Part shown: one piece after another, positions 5,543-54,374 of the stretch
Numbering within the stretch: the first letter of the stretch is position 1
Layout of the letters: every line of letters starts with the position of its first letter
Origin: Candidatus Sulfopaludibacter sp. SbA3
GTDB taxonomy: Bacteria; Pseudomonadota; Alphaproteobacteria; Caulobacterales; Hyphomonadaceae
Direction of reading: 5' to 3'
Assembly (NCBI GenBank): GCA_945888325.1
Contig: CAMDAC010000005.1
Location: 1 to 64,000 of the forward strand
DNA length: 64,000 nucleotides
Notes under the pieces: model-generated
The model's input: only the letters and a program-made list of their open reading frames with translations
Database searches by the model: none
Told to the model about the DNA's origin: nothing
Position numbers and translations under genes: made by a program

Positions 5543-6265
5543 ATGAGCCTGATCTGGTGGATACTTCCGTCTGTTGCAGGCGTTCTAGGCCTGATTCTCC
5601 TGTTCGCGGGCTTTGCGAAGATGGCCGGGCTGAAACCCTTTGCCGGCGTGGCGCGTCTGGCGTTCGGGTCCGGCTTTCTGGGTCTGGCGGGCGTGATCGC
5701 CTTTGCGGGCCTGAACATCCAGACCTACAAACGCCTCACCTATGAACGCCCGGTGGCGACGGTGAAGTTCACCGCCGTTCCTGACCAGGCCAATGCCTAC
5801 CGCGCGGACGTGGTTTTCTCCGACGGCCAGACCCTGCTGCAGGCCGATGGCAGCGCGCCGGTTTTCCGGGGCAACGAGTGGCAGATGGGCGCCAAGGTCA
5901 TCAAATTCAAACCGATGGCCAACATCCTCGGCTATGATTCGATCTACCGGCTCGAGCACATGCGCTCGCTGGACGCGATGCAGTTTTCCTCGGAAGTCGT
6001 CACCGAAGGCAAGATCGACGGGTTGAAGATTGTCGAGACCGAACCCGGCATTGATGTCGGCGGGCTGGCGGCAAAGTATGGCTCGCAATTCGGGATCGAC
6101 GCCGAGTATGGCTCGGCCACCTACCAGCCGATGGGCGACGGGTTCGAGTATGAAGTCTCGATCACGCAGGACGCGCTGATCGCGCGCCCGAGCGAGGCGA
6201 CGAAATCCAAGATCCAGGACGGCGCCTATCCGGGCTTCCGGCCGATTGGCGGATCGGGCGGATGA
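5543..6265 (+). CDS. Conserved membrane-anchored protein of unknown function
   Basis: A 240-residue protein with two N-terminal hydrophobic helices (about residues 5-25 and 40-60), followed by a soluble region that probably sits in the periplasm. The soluble part is rich in short beta-type segments such as YRADVVFSDGQTLLQADG. No catalytic motif or named domain is recognised; similar proteins are sometimes labelled as efflux pump components, which the sequence does not justify. It has a GGGAGAG ribosome-binding site, and its stop overlaps the start of the downstream methyltransferase gene by four bases, so the two are coupled. Confidence 0.7.
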   Translation: MSLIWWILPSVAGVLGLILLFAGFAKMAGLKPFAGVARLAFGSGFLGLAGVIAFAGLNIQTYKRLTYERPVATVKFTAVPDQANAYRADVVFSDGQTLLQADGSAPVFRGNEWQMGAKVIKFKPMANILGYDSIYRLEHMRSLDAMQFSSEVVTEGKIDGLKIVETEPGIDVGGLAAKYGSQFGIDAEYGSATYQPMGDGFEYEVSITQDALIARPSEATKSKIQDGAYPGFRPIGGSGG

Positions 6266-45495: not shown

Positions 45496-46140
45496 ATGTT
45501 GGTTCTAGGCCTCAACACTGCTTTCAGCACGATGGAAGCCGCCCTCGTCCGGGACGGCGAAATCCTGTGTGACTGCCGCGAGGCGATGCCGCGCGGCCAG
45601 GAGCGGCGCTTGCCCGGCCTAGTCGCCGAGCTCTGCGCCGAAGCCGGCGTCACCCTCGCCGAGCTGACGCGCATCGGCGTCGTCGCGGGCCCCGGCAGCT
45701 TCACTGGCCTGCGCATCGGCGTCGCCTATGCGCGCGGCCTCGCCCTCGTCACCGGCGCCCAGGTCCTCGGCATCACCAGTCTCGAAGCCGCGATTCCGGC
45801 CGGCCTCGAAGGCCCCGCCCTCGGCTGCCTGCAAGCCCAGCGCCGCCCGCCCGAGCAGACCTGGTGGGTGCAGGGCATCTCGGAAGGGGAGGGCATCGCC
45901 GGCGTCATGGAAGTTCCGCTCACGGAGCTTCTCCCCATGCTCACGGGTTTCCACGCCCCCGCCTTCATGGATGGCAGCGAGGCCCTCGGAGAACTCGCCG
46001 CCAAACTTGACCTGCGCCCGATGCAACCGAGCGCGATCACCGCCGCCCTGAAAGCCGGCCTCTTCGATCCAGCCAAACACCCGCCCGCACCCGTTTATGC
46101 CCGCGCACCGGATGCGGCGCTTCCAGCCGTGAAGGGTTAG
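45496..46140 (+). CDS. tsaB: tRNA threonylcarbamoyladenosine biosynthesis protein TsaB
   Basis: A 214-residue TsaB. LGLNTAFSTMEAAL and VVAGPGSFTGLRIGVAYARGLAL are the ASKHA-fold signatures of this group. It pairs with TsaD and TsaE to make the t6A modification at position 37 of tRNAs reading ANN codons. A GAGG box precedes the ATG. The expected neighbour rimI is found about 9.6 kb downstream, beyond an inserted segment. Confidence 0.92.
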   Translation: MLVLGLNTAFSTMEAALVRDGEILCDCREAMPRGQERRLPGLVAELCAEAGVTLAELTRIGVVAGPGSFTGLRIGVAYARGLALVTGAQVLGITSLEAAIPAGLEGPALGCLQAQRRPPEQTWWVQGISEGEGIAGVMEVPLTELLPMLTGFHAPAFMDGSEALGELAAKLDLRPMQPSAITAALKAGLFDPAKHPPAPVYARAPDAALPAVKG

Positions 46141-46491
46141 GTGCAAGCGCAAGCCTAACGGCGCGGTTTGGCCCATTCCTGTCGTTGGTATCGATCAGCG
46201 TGCCCACGGAACCGAGCCGGTAACCTCAAAGGATGTTGCCGGCTACTACGGCATCGCTACAGGCAGCGCAGGCACAGGAACCGGCGGCCCGGCGTGAGCG
46301 GAGTCCCTGAGGCAAAAAAGCGGCTTGGCGATTTCATCGGGCAAGTAGTCAGGAAAATCGCAGAAAGAGCACAATCAATATTGAACACGAATCGTACGTA
46401 TAAGCTCTACGATAGGCCGAATTGTGCACGATAGAAATATCTGCGACCCTGCATCGAACGATCAGAAAAAGACGTGTGCGGGAGGTGCATC
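46141..46491. other. Intergenic region and left edge of the lower-GC island
   Basis: This 351-base gap leads from tsaB to the first TonB receptor gene. The left part has a weak inverted repeat (GTTAGG/CCTAAC at 46136-46158). GC content falls clearly from about 46,340 on. An 88-codon open frame is present but arginine-rich and without family or ribosome-binding site, so it is not called. The right part carries a shared regulatory motif listed separately. Confidence 0.5.
46409..46429 (+). promoter_or_regulatory. Shared putative operator, copy 1 (upstream of TonB receptor)
   Basis: A 21-nt motif reading ACGATAG, three variable bases, GAATTGT, one variable base, CAC. A near copy stands upstream of the tartrate dehydrogenase gene. 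Here it is followed by a second ACGATAG at 46428-46434, and the centre GTGCAC is palindromic. It begins 83 bases before the receptor start. It is probably the binding site of the LysR regulator encoded next to the island's enzymes. Confidence 0.6.
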
Positions 46492-49400
46492 ATGAAACAT
46501 AAGACAACAACTCAAACAGGATTGGCAGCCACGGCTCTCAAATCAGTCCTATTGTCCTCGGTTTGCCTTTCAATTGCAGGCCCGAGTTTCTCTCAAGGCG
46601 CGCCGGCAGAAGAAGAAAGCCGCCAGGAAACTGTCACCGTCACGGGAACGCAGATCAAAGGCGCCAAGATCGATGACGTATTGCCAGTCACAAAAGTCGA
46701 CACGATCGATATCGAGACGTCGGGCGTGGTTTCAGGAGACGAGTTGTTTCGCTCCATTCCCCAGGCCGGTGCCGTGAACTTTCAGGACAATAAAACTTCG
46801 GGCGGCATAAACGATGCTCGTGGCGACGTTGCGTCAATAAACCTGCGCGAACTGGGAACCGGAAACACCCTGCTGCTCATCAACGGCCGCCGCATGGTTC
46901 TGAACCCCGGCTTCCAGACTGAACTCCTGGTTCCCGTTGTCTCGCCAAACACAAACACGATTCCTGCAAGCGGCGTGCAAAGGGTTGAAGTGTTGCGTGA
47001 CGGCGCCTCGGCCATCTACGGCGCCGACGCAGTCGGCGGCGTTGTCAACACGATCCTGAAGTCGAACAGGAAGGGTGGCTTTGCGACCGGGCAATACGGC
47101 GAGGCGGAAGAGACCGGCCAATATGAAGTGAACCTCTCTGCCGGCTACGGCTTCGACTTCAATGGCGGCCGCAGTAATCTCACGCTGTATGCGGACTATT
47201 TCGACACCAACACCGTCTTGTCCGGCGAACGAGACTTCTCGGCGAACGATGACAAACGGCCATTCCTCGTTGGAACTCCTTTTGAAGGCGATGTAAACTT
47301 TGACGGCAGGAGCGTTGGCGCGCCATGGGGACGGTTCAGAGCGTCGGCCCGTATTCCAGGCGTCAATGATGACGATTTTCATATTCAACCTGACACGTTG
47401 GCCGGTTGCCGGCTCTCCCTCGGCAATGGAATTTGTATCGATGACGGCAGCACAACGATTGACAGAGACATCCGATATGACGTTTCAACAGACAGAGATC
47501 TGTTTTCGGCACGCCAACGCCTGAACCTGAACACCCTCTTCACGCACGAGATTGGTGCGGATCTCGAACTGTATGCCGAGGCTCACTACTACACATTCGA
47601 CTCCTTGCGGGAGCGGGAGAGCGGGCAGATCCTTTCCGGTCAGGAAATCGGCATCACGCCAGACGCTTATTATAACCCCTTCGGAGCTGTGCTGCGTCCG
47701 GATGGTTCGCCAAATACGAGCCGCATACCTGGGCTTACTGGCGTTCCGGCCGGAGGCCTCTCAATTCAGGCGATTGCTTACCGGGTTGCCGACTCTGGGC
47801 CGCGACGCGTCGATGTGACCGGCGATACCTACCGACTGCTTGGCGGGCTGCGCGGCGCTTGGGGTGATTGGGATTACGATACCGCTGTTCTTTATTCGAA
47901 GGCCCAAGTCGATGACATCCAGCGCAATTCAACGTCACTGACAGCGCTTCAGGATTCCATCAACCGGTCGACTCCCGACGCTTACAACCCCTTCAATGGA
48001 ACTGGTCTGCAGAACTTTAATTCCGGCGACGGCACTCCCAGTGATCCTGCCGCGATCGAGGCCATCAAGGTTGATGTTTTCCGAAAGGGTGAGACGGACC
48101 TTTTCCTCGCAGACTTCAAACTCTCGCGCGATGACCTTTTCGTGCTACCGGGCGGAAACCTGGGTGTCGCAACGGGAGTCGAGTTCCGGCAGGAATCCTT
48201 TATCGACGACCGTGACCCGAGACTTGATGGCACCATCACTTTCACTAACGCCATAACGGGAGAAGTATATGGCGGAGACTTGCTTAGCAACAGCCCCACG
48301 CCGGACTCCTCCGGTGAACGTGACGTGTTCTCCGCTTATGTTGAAGCCTTTGTGCCTCTCATCGGCGATGAGATGGACATCCCGCTGGTGAAGAACCTCG
48401 ACGTTCAGCTCGCCGGTCGCTATGAAAGTTTCTCTGACTCAGGCGAAACATTTGTCCCGCGGGTGGCTGCTTCATGGGGCGTGACAGACGGACTCCTGTT
48501 CAGGGCTGCCTGGTCAGAAGGATTCCGCGCGCCAAACCTCGTCCAGGTCAACGATGACGGTGTTCAGCGCTCAAACGTTCGCGACGATTATGTCCGCTGC
48601 CAGGCGCAGGTTGAGCAGGGACTTCTCAGCAGCCTGGGGGCCTGTGCGGGGCAACGTACAACAGATCTACGAAGCGGCAGTGAAAGTCTTGAGCCTGAAG
48701 ACACGGAAAGCATCAACCTTGGCGTCGTCTTCTCGCCGCAATTCCTGCCCGGGCTCACCTTCACGGCCGATTATTGGGAGATCGAGCAGAGCGGCATCGT
48801 CGGACTGTTCGGGACCCAGAACCACATCGCGCTCGATCTGCTGCTTCGCCAGCAAGGCAGTTTCAATCCGGCGGTCATTCGCGATGCGCCTGATCAGGAT
48901 ACGATTGATCTGTTCGCCGGCACCTCGCTTTCGCCCGCCGGTGAGATCGACTTTGTGTCCGATACCTATGTGAACCTCGACCAACGCAAGACGGAGGGCG
49001 CTGATTTCGGCGTCTATTACGACCTCGAGGATACGGCATGGGGTGACTTCCGGTTCCGGTTCAACGCCGCACGGCTGTACACATTCTTCCAGACTCCCGG
49101 TGAGCTTGGCCAGACATTGCTCGATGCTGTGGACTCCGGCGCACTGCCGAATGATGTCGAGATCGCAGGCCTGGGAGAATTGCTGGAGGAGGACGGCAGG
49201 CCAAAATGGCAATTCAGCACAGGACTGAACTGGAGCGCCGGAAACTGGGACGCGGGCCTGTTCGGTCGATATGTTGGCAGGTTCGATGACTCAAGCGCGA
49301 TCCAGGACGATGACGGATCGCTCTGGGAAGTGAAGCCCTGGTTCGTCACCAACGCTTCCCTCAGCTACACGTTCGACGGTGACAATGCGCTTAAGGATAC

Positions 49401-49533
49401 GCGCCTGCGCTTCCGCATCAATAACCTGCTCAATGAAGATCCACCGTTGGCGGATGAAACCAATGGATTCTTCGGCGAGTATCATAGCGCGAAGGGACGC
49501 TTTTACTCAGTAGAAGTTCGCAAGAATTTCTGA
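46492..49533 (+). CDS. TonB-dependent outer-membrane receptor (island)
   Basis: A 1013-residue TonB-dependent receptor. An N-terminal signal (SVLLSSVCLSIAGPSFSQG) is followed by a plug domain (ETVTVTGTQIKGAKIDD; LRELGTGNTLLLINGRRM; GVQRVEVLRDGASAIYGADAVGG) and a long beta-barrel that ends in aromatic YSVEVRKNF. A GGGAGG box lies upstream of the chosen ATG; a start 6 codons earlier is less likely. The barrel has no siderophore-specific feature, and the neighbouring dicarboxylate genes suggest a plant- or algal-derived organic acid ester as substrate. Composition is lower in GC than the flanking genes. Confidence 0.92.
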   Translation: MKHKTTTQTGLAATALKSVLLSSVCLSIAGPSFSQGAPAEEESRQETVTVTGTQIKGAKIDDVLPVTKVDTIDIETSGVVSGDELFRSIPQAGAVNFQDNKTSGGINDARGDVASINLRELGTGNTLLLINGRRMVLNPGFQTELLVPVVSPNTNTIPASGVQRVEVLRDGASAIYGADAVGGVVNTILKSNRKGGFATGQYGEAEETGQYEVNLSAGYGFDFNGGRSNLTLYADYFDTNTVLSGERDFSANDDKRPFLVGTPFEGDVNFDGRSVGAPWGRFRASARIPGVNDDDFHIQPDTLAGCRLSLGNGICIDDGSTTIDRDIRYDVSTDRDLFSARQRLNLNTLFTHEIGADLELYAEAHYYTFDSLRERESGQILSGQEIGITPDAYYNPFGAVLRPDGSPNTSRIPGLTGVPAGGLSIQAIAYRVADSGPRRVDVTGDTYRLLGGLRGAWGDWDYDTAVLYSKAQVDDIQRNSTSLTALQDSINRSTPDAYNPFNGTGLQNFNSGDGTPSDPAAIEAIKVDVFRKGETDLFLADFKLSRDDLFVLPGGNLGVATGVEFRQESFIDDRDPRLDGTITFTNAITGEVYGGDLLSNSPTPDSSGERDVFSAYVEAFVPLIGDEMDIPLVKNLDVQLAGRYESFSDSGETFVPRVAASWGVTDGLLFRAAWSEGFRAPNLVQVNDDGVQRSNVRDDYVRCQAQVEQGLLSSLGACAGQRTTDLRSGSESLEPEDTESINLGVVFSPQFLPGLTFTADYWEIEQSGIVGLFGTQNHIALDLLLRQQGSFNPAVIRDAPDQDTIDLFAGTSLSPAGEIDFVSDTYVNLDQRKTEGADFGVYYDLEDTAWGDFRFRFNAARLYTFFQTPGELGQTLLDAVDSGALPNDVEIAGLGELLEEDGRPKWQFSTGLNWSAGNWDAGLFGRYVGRFDDSSAIQDDDGSLWEVKPWFVTNASLSYTFDGDNALKDTRLRFRINNLLNEDPPLADETNGFFGEYHSAKGRFYSVEVRKNF

Positions 49534-49554
49534 GCGAGCAGAAGTATCGTGTTC

Positions 49555-49585
49555 GGAGGCCGCCCAGTTAAGCTGGGTGGCCTTC
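49555..49585 (+). terminator. Hairpin terminator after the TonB receptor
   Basis: GGAGGCC-G-CCCAG pairs with CTGGG-T-GGCCTTCC around a TTAAG loop, 22 bases after the receptor stop. The T-run is short, so Rho may assist. It also lies just after the LysR gene's 3' end on the other strand. Confidence 0.65.
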
Positions 49586-49593
49586 CTGCATTC

Positions 49594-50517
49594 TCAGGAA
49601 AGGTGGCGCGCCGTGCTGTCCTTGAGCGGAGCAAGGTACTCCCTGAAGAAGGCGACGACGGTGGTGATCTTGCGTGTATCGCGCAGCTCCGGCGGATAAA
49701 CCGCCCAAATGTTTGCCGCTTGTGAATAATCGGTGAGAATGTGGACAAGCTTTCCCGAAGACAGATGCTGGTGAACGTCCCATACGGACCGAAGCAGAAT
49801 GCCGAGGCCTGACAGGGCCCAGTCAACCGCGATCTCGCCATTATTAGTCGAGAGTGCGTCGTTCACGTTGACCGTTTCCTCATTGCCCTTCCGTTCGAGA
49901 CGCCAGACGCCAACCGGGTGATCTCGCTCCTTGATGGCAATACACCGGTGGGCGGACAAGTCGGTCAGGCGCACTGGCGTGCCATTTCGCGCGAGGTAAT
50001 CCGGAGATGCAAGGATGATGCGTTTGTTATCGGCGAGTTTTCTTGCAATCAGGTGCGCAGCAATCTCGTCTCCGATCCTGATATCCAGATCGAAACCTTC
50101 CGCACCGGGATCGATAACCCTGTCGAGCACTTCAAACCTGACCTGCAGTTCAGGATGAGCGGCCGCCAATTCGGATATTATGGGGCCTACGTGGTTCCGG
50201 CCAAACCCGAAGCTGCTGCAGATGCGGAGCCGTCCCCGAAGAGACTCTGAACCTGAGCCGCTTTCAACGATCAGCTGATCGAGCTTGTCCAGGATCTCAG
50301 CGGACAAGGAAACAAGACGGTCTCCCTCATCCGTCAGCGTCACGTTGCGTGTCGTTCTGTGAAACAACTTCGTCTGAAGCTGTTCCTCGAGAAGCCGGAT
50401 GCGTTTTGAGACGAATGCTGGCGACATCCCGAGTTCCTTGGCCGCCGTTTTGAAGTTCGATAGCCGGGCAATTGCGCAGAATACCGCAAGGTCTTCAGGG
50501 CGAGGCAGATTGTGCAT
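49594..50517 (-). CDS. LysR-family regulator of the tartrate/malate genes (DmlR-like)
   Basis: A 307-residue LysR protein. The HTH is LAVFCAIARLSNFKTAAKELGMSPAFVSKRIRLLE, a pattern close to DmlR/TtuA-type regulators, with LFHRTTRNVTLTDEGDRL next. The effector domain runs from residue 90 (GRLRICSSFGFGRNHVGP). The start MHNLPRPEDL is the family start; a 67-residue upstream extension is not credible. It is divergent from the tartrate dehydrogenase operon and should control it, and probably also the TonB receptor, through the shared motif. Confidence 0.87.
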   Translation of the reverse strand: MHNLPRPEDLAVFCAIARLSNFKTAAKELGMSPAFVSKRIRLLEEQLQTKLFHRTTRNVTLTDEGDRLVSLSAEILDKLDQLIVESGSGSESLRGRLRICSSFGFGRNHVGPIISELAAAHPELQVRFEVLDRVIDPGAEGFDLDIRIGDEIAAHLIARKLADNKRIILASPDYLARNGTPVRLTDLSAHRCIAIKERDHPVGVWRLERKGNEETVNVNDALSTNNGEIAVDWALSGLGILLRSVWDVHQHLSSGKLVHILTDYSQAANIWAVYPPELRDTRKITTVVAFFREYLAPLKDSTARHLS

Positions 50518-50537
50518 GAAATGTATCCAAACAAAGC

Positions 50538-50558
50538 ACGATAGAGGGAATTGTTCAC
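50538..50558 (+). promoter_or_regulatory. Shared putative operator, copy 2 (upstream of tartrate dehydrogenase)
   Basis: The same 21-nt motif as upstream of the TonB receptor, identical except at four positions. It lies in the 145-base gap between the LysR gene and the dehydrogenase gene. A further ATTGTGCA at 50509-50516 runs over the LysR start codon and may be a third, weaker site for autoregulation. Confidence 0.6.
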
Positions 50559-50662
50559 CAAATAGAGTTGGCTGTAAAGCGTGGGGGTAGCGGATTTTCC
50601 CCCTCAGGAAGCTTGCAGCACCGGCAGACGGTGCCAGCGGGTTTGGAAACAGTGAGACCTGC

Positions 50663-51802
50663 ATGGCTGCCCAGACATCATACTCGATCGCCTGCATTCC
50701 AGGCGATGGCATCGGCAAGGAAGTGGTCCCCGAAGGTGTCCGGGTTCTCGACAGAGCGGCTCAGATTTACGGTTTCAGCTTTGACTGGACGGAGTATCCT
50801 TGGTCCTGCGAATATTATGCACGCCACGGCAGGATGATGCCGCCCGATGGGATCGACCAGCTGCGCCGCCACGATGCGATATTTCTTGGCGCGGTCGGAT
50901 TTCCGGGCGTGCCGGATCACGTGTCCCTCTGGGGGCTGTTGCTCCCCATCCGCCGAAAGTTCGATCAGTATGTAAATCTTCGTCCGATACGCCTTATGCC
51001 GGGAATGGACTCCCCTCTGGCGCGGGCCGTACCCGGTGAAATAGATTTCCTAATCGTGCGCGAAAACACTGAAGGCGAATACTCCGACCAGGGAATGGTT
51101 CTGGCGCCGGACTCAGCTGAAGAAACCATCGTTCAACATTCCGTCTTCACCCGGAGGGGCGTTGACCGGATACTGCGCTACGCTTTCGAAACCGCGATGA
51201 AACGGAATCGCAAGCTGACCTGGGCCACGAAATCGAACGGCGTTTTTGTCGCGATGCCGTATTGGGACCGGCGCGCCGAACTCATCGGGCAGGTGTACCC
51301 GGAGGTTCGCGCACAACAGTACCATATCGATATCCTTGCAGCCCATTTTGTGAGCCGGCCTGAAAGCTTCGATGTTGTCGTCGCCTCAAACCTTATGGGC
51401 GACATTCTTTCCGACCTTGGTGCAGCCTGCACAGGAACGATCGGCGTGGCGGCTTCAGCCAATCTCAATCCCGAGCGGGAGCATCCGTCGATGTTCGAGC
51501 CCGTGCACGGCTCGGCTCCCGACATCTATGGTCGCAACATCGCGAATCCAATCGGCCAAATCTGGTCCGGAGCGATGATGCTTGAACATCTTGGACAGCA
51601 CAAAGCTGCTCAGGCAGTTATGAACGCCATAGAGGCGGTTCTGGCCGGTGGCCCCCGAACGCCGGACATGGGCGGGACCGCATCGACCAGCGAGGTCGGT
51701 CAAGCGATTGCGGCAGCATTACCAAGCCTTCAAAAGGAAACGCTCGGCGCAGGCCGAGGTGCGTTTGAAGCGCGTGAAGAATCGCATCCGACCAGAACAT
51801 AG
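50663..51802 (+). CDS. ttuC: Tartrate / D-malate dehydrogenase (decarboxylating)
   Basis: A 379-residue NAD-dependent beta-decarboxylating dehydrogenase of the isocitrate/isopropylmalate family. IPGDGIGKEVVPEG at the N-terminus and IDFLIVRENTEGEYSDQG, KSNGVFV, ASNLMGDILSDLGAACTGTIG and EPVHGSAPDIYGRNIANP are the family motifs. The GMDSPLA region and overall best fit are to TtuC/DmlA enzymes, which oxidise tartrate or D-malate. Isopropylmalate dehydrogenase (LeuB) is less likely, since no leucine genes are near. It starts the operon with the SGNH lipoprotein and DASS transporter. Confidence 0.9.
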   Translation: MAAQTSYSIACIPGDGIGKEVVPEGVRVLDRAAQIYGFSFDWTEYPWSCEYYARHGRMMPPDGIDQLRRHDAIFLGAVGFPGVPDHVSLWGLLLPIRRKFDQYVNLRPIRLMPGMDSPLARAVPGEIDFLIVRENTEGEYSDQGMVLAPDSAEETIVQHSVFTRRGVDRILRYAFETAMKRNRKLTWATKSNGVFVAMPYWDRRAELIGQVYPEVRAQQYHIDILAAHFVSRPESFDVVVASNLMGDILSDLGAACTGTIGVAASANLNPEREHPSMFEPVHGSAPDIYGRNIANPIGQIWSGAMMLEHLGQHKAAQAVMNAIEAVLAGGPRTPDMGGTASTSEVGQAIAAALPSLQKETLGAGRGAFEAREESHPTRT

Positions 51803-51832
51803 TCTGAACGGGTATTGGGACGGGAGGAAATA

Positions 51833-52693
51833 ATGAGGCAATCGGGAAAGACGTGGGCGCTCGGAGGGTTGCTGCTGGTGGCTGTTGCCTGCGCTACGCC
51901 TGCAGACCTTGCCGCGGATCCGGGGCCTGCAACAGACGTTTCGCGGTCTGCGGAACCGGAGATCAAGCGTCTCCGCACAGCGAGGCCGACGCATATCCTG
52001 TTTGTAGGCAACAGCTACCTCTATTACGGCGACAGTGTGCATAATCACGTCTCAAGAATGGTCGTCGCCGCAGGCTTGCTGGAAGAGTCTGAGCTGTCAT
52101 TCAAGTCCTCGACGATCGGCGGCGCAGCGCTTTTCGACCACAATATCGATCACCTGATTGAGCCGAAAAACCTCCGCGTGGACAGACCTTTCGAAGTCGT
52201 AGTTCTGCAGGGCGGAAGCGCCGCGCCGCTGTCGCAGGAACGGCGCCGACGTTTTGCTGAAACAGCAGCGGAATTTTCAGAGAAGATCAGGCGCAGTGGC
52301 GGCGAAACTGTCCTCTACATGACGCACGCCTATGTCGCACCGCATCCGCGACATCGTCCGGACATGATCGACGACATATCGTCTCTGTATATCGAGACGG
52401 GCAACGAGATCGGGGCGCTTGTTGTGCCGGTCGGCCTTGCCTTTGAGGAAGCTTATCGACGGAGACCAGAACTCCAGCTTCACAAGTCCTTTGATGGATC
52501 TCACCCCGATCTGCCTGGGACTTATCTTGCGGCCGCAACCGTTTTTGCGAGCCTTTACGGGATATCTCCCGTCGGCAACAGCTACGACTATTATGCGGCG
52601 ATCGATGCCGAAACGGCGCTTTTCCTGCAGACTGTAGCGCGGGATACGGTCGAATCCTTCTATGGCCAGGAACTTGCGGAAGCGCCCAAGTGA
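51833..52693 (+). CDS. SGNH/GDSL-like lipoprotein hydrolase
   Basis: A 286-residue exported protein. GGLLLVAVACATP is a lipoprotein signal with cysteine about residue 21. HILFVGNSYLYYGD (block I, GNS serine, about residues 54-67) and DGSHPDLPGTYLAA (block V, D-x-x-H) are the catalytic serine and histidine blocks of SGNH hydrolases of the DUF4886 type. It would cleave esters in the periplasm or at the cell surface. GGGAGGAAATA precedes the ATG. It is placed between the dehydrogenase and the transporter, so it may release an acid such as tartrate or malate from an ester or polymer. Confidence 0.8.
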   Translation: MRQSGKTWALGGLLLVAVACATPADLAADPGPATDVSRSAEPEIKRLRTARPTHILFVGNSYLYYGDSVHNHVSRMVVAAGLLEESELSFKSSTIGGAALFDHNIDHLIEPKNLRVDRPFEVVVLQGGSAAPLSQERRRRFAETAAEFSEKIRRSGGETVLYMTHAYVAPHPRHRPDMIDDISSLYIETGNEIGALVVPVGLAFEEAYRRRPELQLHKSFDGSHPDLPGTYLAAATVFASLYGISPVGNSYDYYAAIDAETALFLQTVARDTVESFYGQELAEAPK

Positions 52694-52772
52694 TGGAGCC
52701 GCACAAGAAGCGCTCGGTAACAGGGTGGTTGGCGCAGGTCGGTCCCGTCCTTCATAAGGGCTCAGTTCCAGG

Positions 52773-54245
52773 ATGACAGAAACAGCAGAAGACATTGCTG
52801 CCGGCGAGTCTCGGAACCTGAACCTTTTTGGCTTGATTGCCGGGATTGCCGCGTTCGCTGCCATGATGGTCTGGTTCAGGTCAGACAACCTTGAAAAGCC
52901 AGCTGAGATTGTTGCCGCCATCGGCGTCTTGATGGCGATATGGTGGGCCACAGATGCGATCCCGCTTCCGGTCACGGCGCTCGTTCCGCTCGTCGTCTTC
53001 CCGATCACAGGGGTCATGTCGTTGCCGGACAGTGCAGCGCCCTATGCCAATCCGATAATCTTTCTGTTTCTCGGCGGCTTTCTTGTCGCCCTCGCAGTGG
53101 AGCGCAGCCAGCTTCATCGCCGCGTCGCACTTCTCATTTTCAGGGCGCTCGGGCGCAGCGGGGCAGGACTCGTGGGCGGCTTCATGCTGGTCTCTGCTAT
53201 CATCAGCATGTGGATTTCGAACACCTCGACCGTTCTGATGCTCTTTCCGATCGCGACCTCGCTCGGACTCGTGGTCAGCGAGACATCTTCGCAGCTCTCT
53301 CCAAAGGAAAAGCGTGACTTCCAGATCGCTCTGCTGTTGGGCCTCGCCTATGGGGCTTCGATCGGCGGTATTGCCACGCTGGTCGGGACGCCGACTAACG
53401 CCTTCATGGTCGGCTTCCTGCAGTCTGAGTATGAGGTCGAGATACCCTTCGGCCGATGGATGCTGATAGGTTTGCCGGTAACGATCATACTGCTTCCCGT
53501 TGGGTGGCTACTTTTGACTCGCGTTTTGTTCCCGGTACGGTTCATGTCATCTGCCGAGACGAGACTGGAGTTGAAGCGTCGGCATGACGCGCTCGGATCG
53601 ATGTCCCAGGCTGAATGGCGCACGGGATTTCTTTTCACGCTACTGGTAACCGGCTGGCTTTTGCGCGAACAGATTTCCGTCTGGACGGGCTTTGATGCGC
53701 TGTCCGACACGGGTATAGCACTGGCCGCCGCCATACTTGCCTTCATCATTCCGAGCGGCACGGACCGTCAAGCACTGGTGACATGGGAAGATACCAAGCG
53801 CCTGCCGTGGGGCGTTCTCGTCCTGTTTGGCGGCGGCCTTGCACTCGCTGCAGCACTTTCCTCCTCCGGACTGACTCTTTGGCTGGGTCAACAGCTCGCT
53901 CCCCTCGGTGCAATAAATCACGTGCTCCTCGTGGTCGTCCTGACGGCGCTTGTCGTGTTCCTGACGGAGCTCACGAGTAACGTGGCGACAACAGCAACAC
54001 TTCTCCCAGTCGTCGCGGCGCTCGCTGTCGAACTCGGGATGGATCCCCTGATGTTTGTTGTGCCGGTCTCCATAGCGGCAAGTTGTGCGTTCATGCTGCC
54101 GGTCGCGACGCCGCCGAATGCGATTGTCTTCAGCACGGGCGCAGTTAGGATCTTTGATATGGTGAGGGCTGGATTTTGGCTCAACATTGTCGCGATTATC
54201 CTCATCTCGGTCATCGCCCTGTTTCTTGTCCCCGCAGTTCTTTGA
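52773..54245 (+). CDS. DASS-family (SLC13) dicarboxylate transporter
   Basis: A 490-residue polytopic symporter of the divalent anion:sodium family. The two SNT-type motifs that bind sodium and carboxylate are seen: WISNTSTVLMLFPIA (about residue 148) and LTSNVATTATLLPVVAALA (about 405), followed by PVATPPNAIVFSTGAVR. It should take up tartrate, malate or a similar acid with sodium. It ends the operon; an AGG ribosome-binding site precedes the ATG. Confidence 0.92.
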   Translation: MTETAEDIAAGESRNLNLFGLIAGIAAFAAMMVWFRSDNLEKPAEIVAAIGVLMAIWWATDAIPLPVTALVPLVVFPITGVMSLPDSAAPYANPIIFLFLGGFLVALAVERSQLHRRVALLIFRALGRSGAGLVGGFMLVSAIISMWISNTSTVLMLFPIATSLGLVVSETSSQLSPKEKRDFQIALLLGLAYGASIGGIATLVGTPTNAFMVGFLQSEYEVEIPFGRWMLIGLPVTIILLPVGWLLLTRVLFPVRFMSSAETRLELKRRHDALGSMSQAEWRTGFLFTLLVTGWLLREQISVWTGFDALSDTGIALAAAILAFIIPSGTDRQALVTWEDTKRLPWGVLVLFGGGLALAAALSSSGLTLWLGQQLAPLGAINHVLLVVVLTALVVFLTELTSNVATTATLLPVVAALAVELGMDPLMFVVPVSIAASCAFMLPVATPPNAIVFSTGAVRIFDMVRAGFWLNIVAIILISVIALFLVPAVL

Positions 54246-54374
54246 GAGGGTGATGCCAGAGTGACCTGAGCCCCAACAGGTCCCCCATTTCAGTGGAGGA
54301 TTTGCCGATTATCAGCTGTTCGACGGCAAGCGGCCTATGACCGTTTCCGGCGAAAACTTGCCGGTCGCCTGCTC

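Follow-up and report, generated by a model that had tools for sequence, protein, structure and literature searches.

A candidate operator dyad shared by a TonB-dependent receptor gene and a divergent LysR–dehydrogenase operon on an acquired island

Are a TonB-dependent receptor gene and a catabolic operon encoded next to it controlled by one regulator? The question is raised by the window analyzed here, the whole 64,000-nucleotide stretch (64 kb) at positions 1 to 64,000 of contig CAMDAC010000005.1 of Candidatus Sulfopaludibacter sp. SbA3, for which a preliminary description had reported a 21-nt motif twice, upstream of the receptor gene and between a LysR-type regulator gene and a tartrate dehydrogenase gene. 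The pair was confirmed: positions 46409–46429 (ACGATAGGCCGAATTGTGCAC) and 50538–50558 (ACGATAGAGGGAATTGTTCAC) are identical at 17 of 21 positions. As described, the first base of the former lies 83 bases 5' of the receptor ATG (46492), and the latter lies inside the LysR–dehydrogenase gap (50518–50662). The best explanation of the whole, which we hold with considerable though not complete confidence, is that the dyads contained in both 21-mers are operators of the DmlR-like LysR protein and form a two-box island regulon that would couple outer-membrane uptake to catabolism. The elements concerned are the following.

46409 to 46425, forward strand: box A, dyad ACGATAGGCCGAATTGT, reading ACAAT-N7-ATCGT on the opposite strand; it ends 66 bases 5' of the receptor ATG.
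46428 to 46434, forward strand: a further ACGATAG in the sequence, immediately 3' of box A.
46492 to 49533, forward strand: TonB-dependent receptor with Plug and beta-barrel domains (Pfam PF07715, PF00593).
49594 to 50517, reverse strand: LysR-type regulator, DmlR/TtdR-like (PF00126, 73.7 bits; PF03466, 119 bits; each exceeds its cut-off).
50538 to 50554, forward strand: box B, dyad ACGATAGAGGGAATTGT, 37 to 21 bases 5' of the LysR start; it ends 108 bases 5' of the dehydrogenase ATG.
50663 to 51802, forward strand: tartrate/D-malate-type dehydrogenase (TIGR02089, 529.1 bits; cut-off, 470.4).

The sequence ACGATAG-NNN-GAATTGT is a dyad, with the opposite strand reading ACAAT-N7-ATCGT, and the general core of both window sites is ACAAT-N7-ATYGT. 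The additional ACGATAG next to box A is possibly an extra weak half-site. A match of this length had been considered unlikely by chance, an argument that did not survive counting: 737 same-strand 21-mer pairs with at least 17 matches and at most 5 kb apart were found in the window, compared with 143, 153, and 181 in three shuffles, so that a 17/21 pair is by itself not improbable. With the 21-mer pattern at up to three mismatches, two places were found in the window (0.06 expected), and the 3.28-Mb genome held both sites plus one place at three mismatches, with one place for the reversed control; both counts are post hoc, the pattern having been derived from the two sites. Spread of the motif over many unrelated places of the genome, which the preliminary description had named as a refuting outcome, was not observed. 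Because the pairing was post hoc and the window holds many 17/21 pairs, it could be argued that only box B is a genuine LysR operator and that the match at the receptor arose by chance or is the operator of an unrelated regulator.

Evidence independent of the pairing was obtained from relatives of the LysR protein. Seven loci came from a scan of genome contigs. Four of them, L020–L023, were usable; the footprint did not include L024 and L025 (24–32%) or L026 (matching over 39 residues). The LysR proteins of the four loci are 75% (L020, a gammaproteobacterial metagenome-assembled genome), 68% (L021, Paraglaciecola), 64% (L022, Sphingomonas canadensis), and 53% (L023, Cupriavidus numazuensis) identical to that of the window; Sphingomonas is within the Alphaproteobacteria, and the other three belong to other classes. 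A dehydrogenase gene is divergent from the LysR gene in all four, and all five regions, the window included, have the first base of the dyad at exactly −37 relative to the LysR start. A conserved dyad 5' of the regulator's own divergent gene, as in operators of the LysR family, is present in the window and in L020–L023. Pairwise agreement among the five dyads was complete in the ACAAT half (50/50 cells), 28/50 in the other half, and 19/70 in the spacer, while the flanks agreed in 77/230 cells upstream and 91/200 in the stretch down to the LysR start. The window's own motif had no match in these four loci at up to two mismatches (0, 4, 1, and 0 matches at three), because the letters beside the spacer vary and only the ACAAT-N7-ATnGT core is conserved.

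When 30 LysR upstream regions were compared (window, L020–L023, and L027–L051), at least 8 of the 10 half-site letters were found at −37 in six (window, L020–L023, and L027), 7 of 10 in L032 and L043, and fewer in the remaining 22. A bare AAT was observed 35–33 bases 5' of the LysR start in 16 of the 30, including E. coli (L042), and one base further down in five more. Since the AAT recurs at the matching place, the operator may keep a constant position throughout the wider DmlR family even as its sequence changes. The spacer seemed by eye to be one base shorter in L028–L031.

A matrix was built solely from the four foreign sites (L020–L023) and scored on the two halves or on all 17 letters. 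With the half-site matrix, 46409 and 50538 were tied first in the window in both the symmetric and the one-sided forms, and one of 200 window shuffles held two equally good places. The 3.28-Mb genome contains four exact copies of the ACAAT-N7-ATYGT dyad: boxes A and B and two within coding frames that have Pfam domains, namely those of a dicarboxylate symporter (SDF) and of an oxidoreductase. The symporter copy (L062:1501–1517) is deep within the coding sequence and is likely a chance occurrence, though the gene function is suggestive. A slightly different palindrome pattern gave a third exact place in the same genome, within a TonB receptor reading frame. In the L020 genome, the matches listed include four exact-dyad loci, namely the LysR–dehydrogenase box and three inside coding frames. 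Counts with a one-mismatch pattern in the AT-rich genome G1129 were uninformative (684 forward, 637 control) and were set aside.

A second receptor box was found in S. canadensis. With the matrix made without its own site, a perfect dyad at L022:5631–5647, flanked by genes for a metallo-hydrolase and a TonB receptor (Pfam), ranked first of 16,872 places, and 1 of 500 shuffles of the locus reached its score. The LysR–dehydrogenase box itself came third in this locus, and it came first in L020 and L021. This receptor matches the window receptor at 26% across about half its length. If the receptor starts at 5550, where a good ribosome site is visible by eye, the distance to the box is ~80 bases; the alternative start at 5628 would abut the box. 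Three exact dyads are among the matches listed for this genome, the other two lying in a 295-codon frame and in a place with no frame above 100 codons. The second receptor box, the rarity of the dyad in the genome, and the level scores of the receptor site and box B under the foreign half-site matrix all speak against a chance or unrelated match at the receptor, which we regard as improbable.

Several observations weigh against the operator reading. Scoring on all 17 letters placed the window sites second and fifth, and a near-dyad inside the LysR coding region (ATAATCGGTGAGAATGT, 49726–49742) was third best on the half-site matrix, with 16.71 compared with 16.87 in its symmetric form. Shuffles of the short regions reached the score in 8 of 5,000 cases for the receptor upstream region and 3 of 5,000 for the gap. 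Among the relatives, the LysR–dehydrogenase box of L023 ranked fifth in its locus, and 24 of the 30 LysR upstream regions lack the full dyad at −37. The classical rule for LysR-type operators is T-N11-A, from which many members are said to deviate; the dyad here does not fit it, being centered on T-N7-A, with A and T by eye where the rule has T and A. No site of similar quality precedes the Paraglaciecola receptor (best score, 9.93 over 500 bases), which also favors a chance match at the window receptor. In L020, which has the closest receptor, the contig stops 51 bases 5' of that gene, so that a site at the distance of box A would lie off the contig. Finally, a TATAAT just 5' of the S. canadensis receptor box would permit repression. 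In that case the LysR protein would bind both boxes and repress the receptor, a sub-case compatible with the operator claim; it is unlikely, in that the end of box A at 66 bases before the ATG also suits activation and the promoter scan remained at chance level.

Despite these points, the fixed −37 position, the foreign-site matrix, the rarity of the dyad in the genome, and the S. canadensis receptor box argue for LysR operators at both places. The earlier proposal of a shared LysR site tying the receptor to the operon is thus supported on these four grounds and not on the length of the match. The island regulator very probably controls the adjoining enzyme operon and the separate receptor through two copies of the site, and uptake and breakdown of one nutrient would likely be switched on jointly.

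Further places in the Paraglaciecola and S. canadensis loci were noted. A sigma-factor-like gene (L021:5242–5907, Sigma70_r4_2) lies upstream of the boxless Paraglaciecola receptor, the control of which may have passed to a system of the extracytoplasmic function (ECF) type. The second-ranked place of that locus (L021:6783) overlaps the third and is close to where the DUF4886 gene probably begins. In S. canadensis, the second-ranked place was initially considered another possible target, in front of a flavoprotein gene, and then rejected; this palindrome (ACATTTGAAATGAATGT, L022:12706–12722) overlaps the 5' end of a gene of the TetR family (CecR_C) on the opposite strand, with the flavoprotein gene adjacent, and 70 of 500 shuffles reached its score. 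It is probably the operator of the TetR-family regulator itself.

Box B spans −37 to −21 of the LysR gene, which suggests self-repression, and it probably serves the LysR gene as well as the operon. Autoregulation had been suggested as a possibility on account of ATTGTGCA at the LysR start codon. That copy is present at 50509–50516, where it encodes codons M-H-N across the start; it was rejected as a regulatory site, being coding sequence without a dyad partner, and autoregulation is still likely through the box at 50538.

The regulator has the N-terminal HTH_1 and C-terminal LysR_substrate domains that define the LysR-type family. Its best NCBIfam model is TtdR (NF007315) at 314.6 bits, below the cut-off of 398, and the protein was therefore not classed as TtdR. 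The closest known systems are DmlR–DmlA and TtdR, in which LysR-type proteins regulate the utilization of D-malate and tartrate. The window protein is 52% identical to an E. coli homologue and 52% identical to the product of a Klebsiella aerogenes gene annotated dmlR, and, as in the DmlR–DmlA and TtdR systems, its gene is divergent from a TIGR02089-type dehydrogenase gene, which is the DmlR arrangement. A gene of the DmlA/tartrate-dehydrogenase type lies beside the LysR gene in 24 of the 30 loci. In E. coli (L042), an -AAT half-site stands at the corresponding −37 position; unlike these systems, the window has a full two-sided dyad, which is repeated upstream of a TonB receptor gene. The description of a tartrate dehydrogenase operon is borne out by the TIGR02089 score as far as the family goes; tartrate dehydrogenase is a family name, and D-malate is as possible a substrate. 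One D-malate-specific relative of the dehydrogenase and a broader-range E. coli DmlA are reported in PMC11353897.

A single acquired island carries the two boxes together with the regulator and target genes, which was counted as support for the two-box regulon. Its extent and remaining features are as follows.

46187 to 54338, no strand: island holding both boxes and the receptor, LysR, dehydrogenase, DUF4886, and DASS genes (alignment break; G+C).
49557 to 49583, forward strand: strong hairpin 3' of the receptor gene (−29.1 kcal/mol for 49550–49600, z −5.03; without a T run).
51833 to 52693, forward strand: DUF4886 protein (PF16227, 26.8 bits; cut-off, 26.7; the L021 relative passes with 31.6).
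52773 to 54245, forward strand: DASS-family sodium-coupled anion symporter (TIGR00785, 302.3 bits; cut-off, 198.6).

Alignment to the sister genome (L068) ends at window position 46186 and resumes at 54339, with 967 other bases in L068. The G+C content is 56–59% in 1-kb bins over 46000–53999, compared with 65–68% in the left and 62–68% in the right flank. This ~8.15-kb segment between tsaB and an Hsp70-like gene is, on these sequence grounds, foreign, acquired DNA. In 3 of 11 loci of relatives (L073, L077, and L078), tsaB is followed by the Hsp70-like gene within ~75 bases, and ~835 bases separate them in L071 and L072; in five others, no Hsp70-like gene appeared in the 1.5-kb flank. No significant island remnant was found in the 967-base gap of L068 (best E 0.30). 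That gap (L068:2192–3158) contains a 258-codon open frame, stop to stop, without a significant match to island proteins, and may represent a different insertion into a shared hot spot. The location of both 21-mers on the island fits with their being remnants of an island repeat or mobile element and no operators. This explanation is extremely unlikely: just two good copies exist genome-wide, the likeness of the two stretches decays beyond the dyad and the next few bases, and the spacer differs between species in an operator-like manner.

The receptor and LysR genes are arranged tail to tail, as in L020, where the receptor is 68% identical; this layout, together with the hairpin 3' of the receptor gene, implies that the receptor needs its own promoter. 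The hairpin is possibly a terminator; it was absent from the output of the terminator scan, and the sigma-70 and terminator scans both gave results at chance level. L021 carries, in this order on a single strand, genes for the dehydrogenase, the DUF4886 protein, the receptor (39%), and the DASS symporter, with the sigma-factor-like gene between the DUF4886 and receptor genes. In L022, the dehydrogenase gene is followed by the metallo-hydrolase, TonB receptor, and SDF-type symporter genes; the hydrolase and symporter of Sphingomonas differ in seemingly the same roles, which fits one pathway with exchanged parts.

Close LysR homologues were sought in several sets of genomes. Only the own genome held one among 398 genomes of the order (E 1e-70) and 385 of the class (E 1e-80), and 15 of 398 genomes of the phylum did so, the own included (E 1e-80). 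Only the center genome was found in the Sphingomonas family (377 genomes, 1e-110) and in the Paraglaciecola family (335 genomes, 1e-105). Within the genus, a homologue was present in 8 of 42 genomes at 1e-40, the best among the 41 others reaching 4.0e-46 with 35% identity. From the plasmid collection, 11 LysR relatives were fetched from 60 records. Receptor relatives were found in 3 of 72,556 plasmid records, and two of these, L065 and L066, lack this dehydrogenase, a close LysR relative, and the box (best 5.97 and 6.16).

The following scheme is proposed, in which binding, direction of control, inducer, and substrate are deduced from the sites and their setting. The DmlR-like LysR protein encoded between the boxes would bind ACAAT-N7-ATYGT at A and B. 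With a hydroxy-dicarboxylate of the tartrate or D-malate type as inducer, it would activate the divergent dehydrogenase–DUF4886–symporter operon from box B, from which it would probably also repress its own promoter. The gene for the TonB receptor, which stands apart from the operon, would be activated through box A. Uptake across the outer membrane by this receptor would bring in the substrate, free or as a conjugate, the DUF4886 protein, possibly a secreted SGNH-type hydrolase (hydrolase assignment and signal by eye), would cleave it, the symporter would import the product, and the dehydrogenase would oxidize it.

Partial parallels were found in the literature; the likenesses to CarR and DdvT are by description only. 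CarR of the Acinetobacter carnitine cluster is a LysR-type activator binding the gap between its own gene and a D-malate-dehydrogenase operon; unlike here, the pathway is that of carnitine, and the cluster as listed in the part of PMC11353897 consulted has no TonB receptor. DdvT of Sphingobium SYK-6 is likewise a TonB receptor for a carbon source rather than iron, with an aromatic substrate in its case (PMC6874591). PheR of Sphingobium SHPJ-2 is a catabolic regulator with effects extending to TonB/ExbBD functions; it differs in being an IclR-family repressor, and its reach comes from transcriptomics, with no second operator in the portion of PMC13273656 seen. The literature search returned no report pairing a TonB-dependent receptor with tartrate dehydrogenase and LysR, or with LysR, dicarboxylate, and tartrate utilization. 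No report of a DmlR/dmlA binding site was found either, in a search that covered few subscription journals and may have missed work on E. coli DmlR.

The locus provides a concrete candidate operator for one branch of LysR regulators and predicts a role in tartrate or malate catabolism, rather than in iron uptake, for the TonB receptor. More tentatively, and with rather more doubt than confidence, we suggest that unrelated TonB receptors may have come under DmlR-type regulators on two or more occasions, each time by gain of a box in front of the receptor gene. The clusters might then be mobile systems for a bulky hydroxy-dicarboxylate conjugate (a tartrate or malate ester, lactone, or polymer), with import by the receptor, an exchangeable hydrolase (DUF4886 or metallo-hydrolase), an exchangeable symporter (DASS or DctA type), oxidation, and one LysR protein over all steps. 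Dissimilar receptors under the same regulator in two lineages would suggest how outer-membrane uptake gets wired into a transferable catabolic operon.

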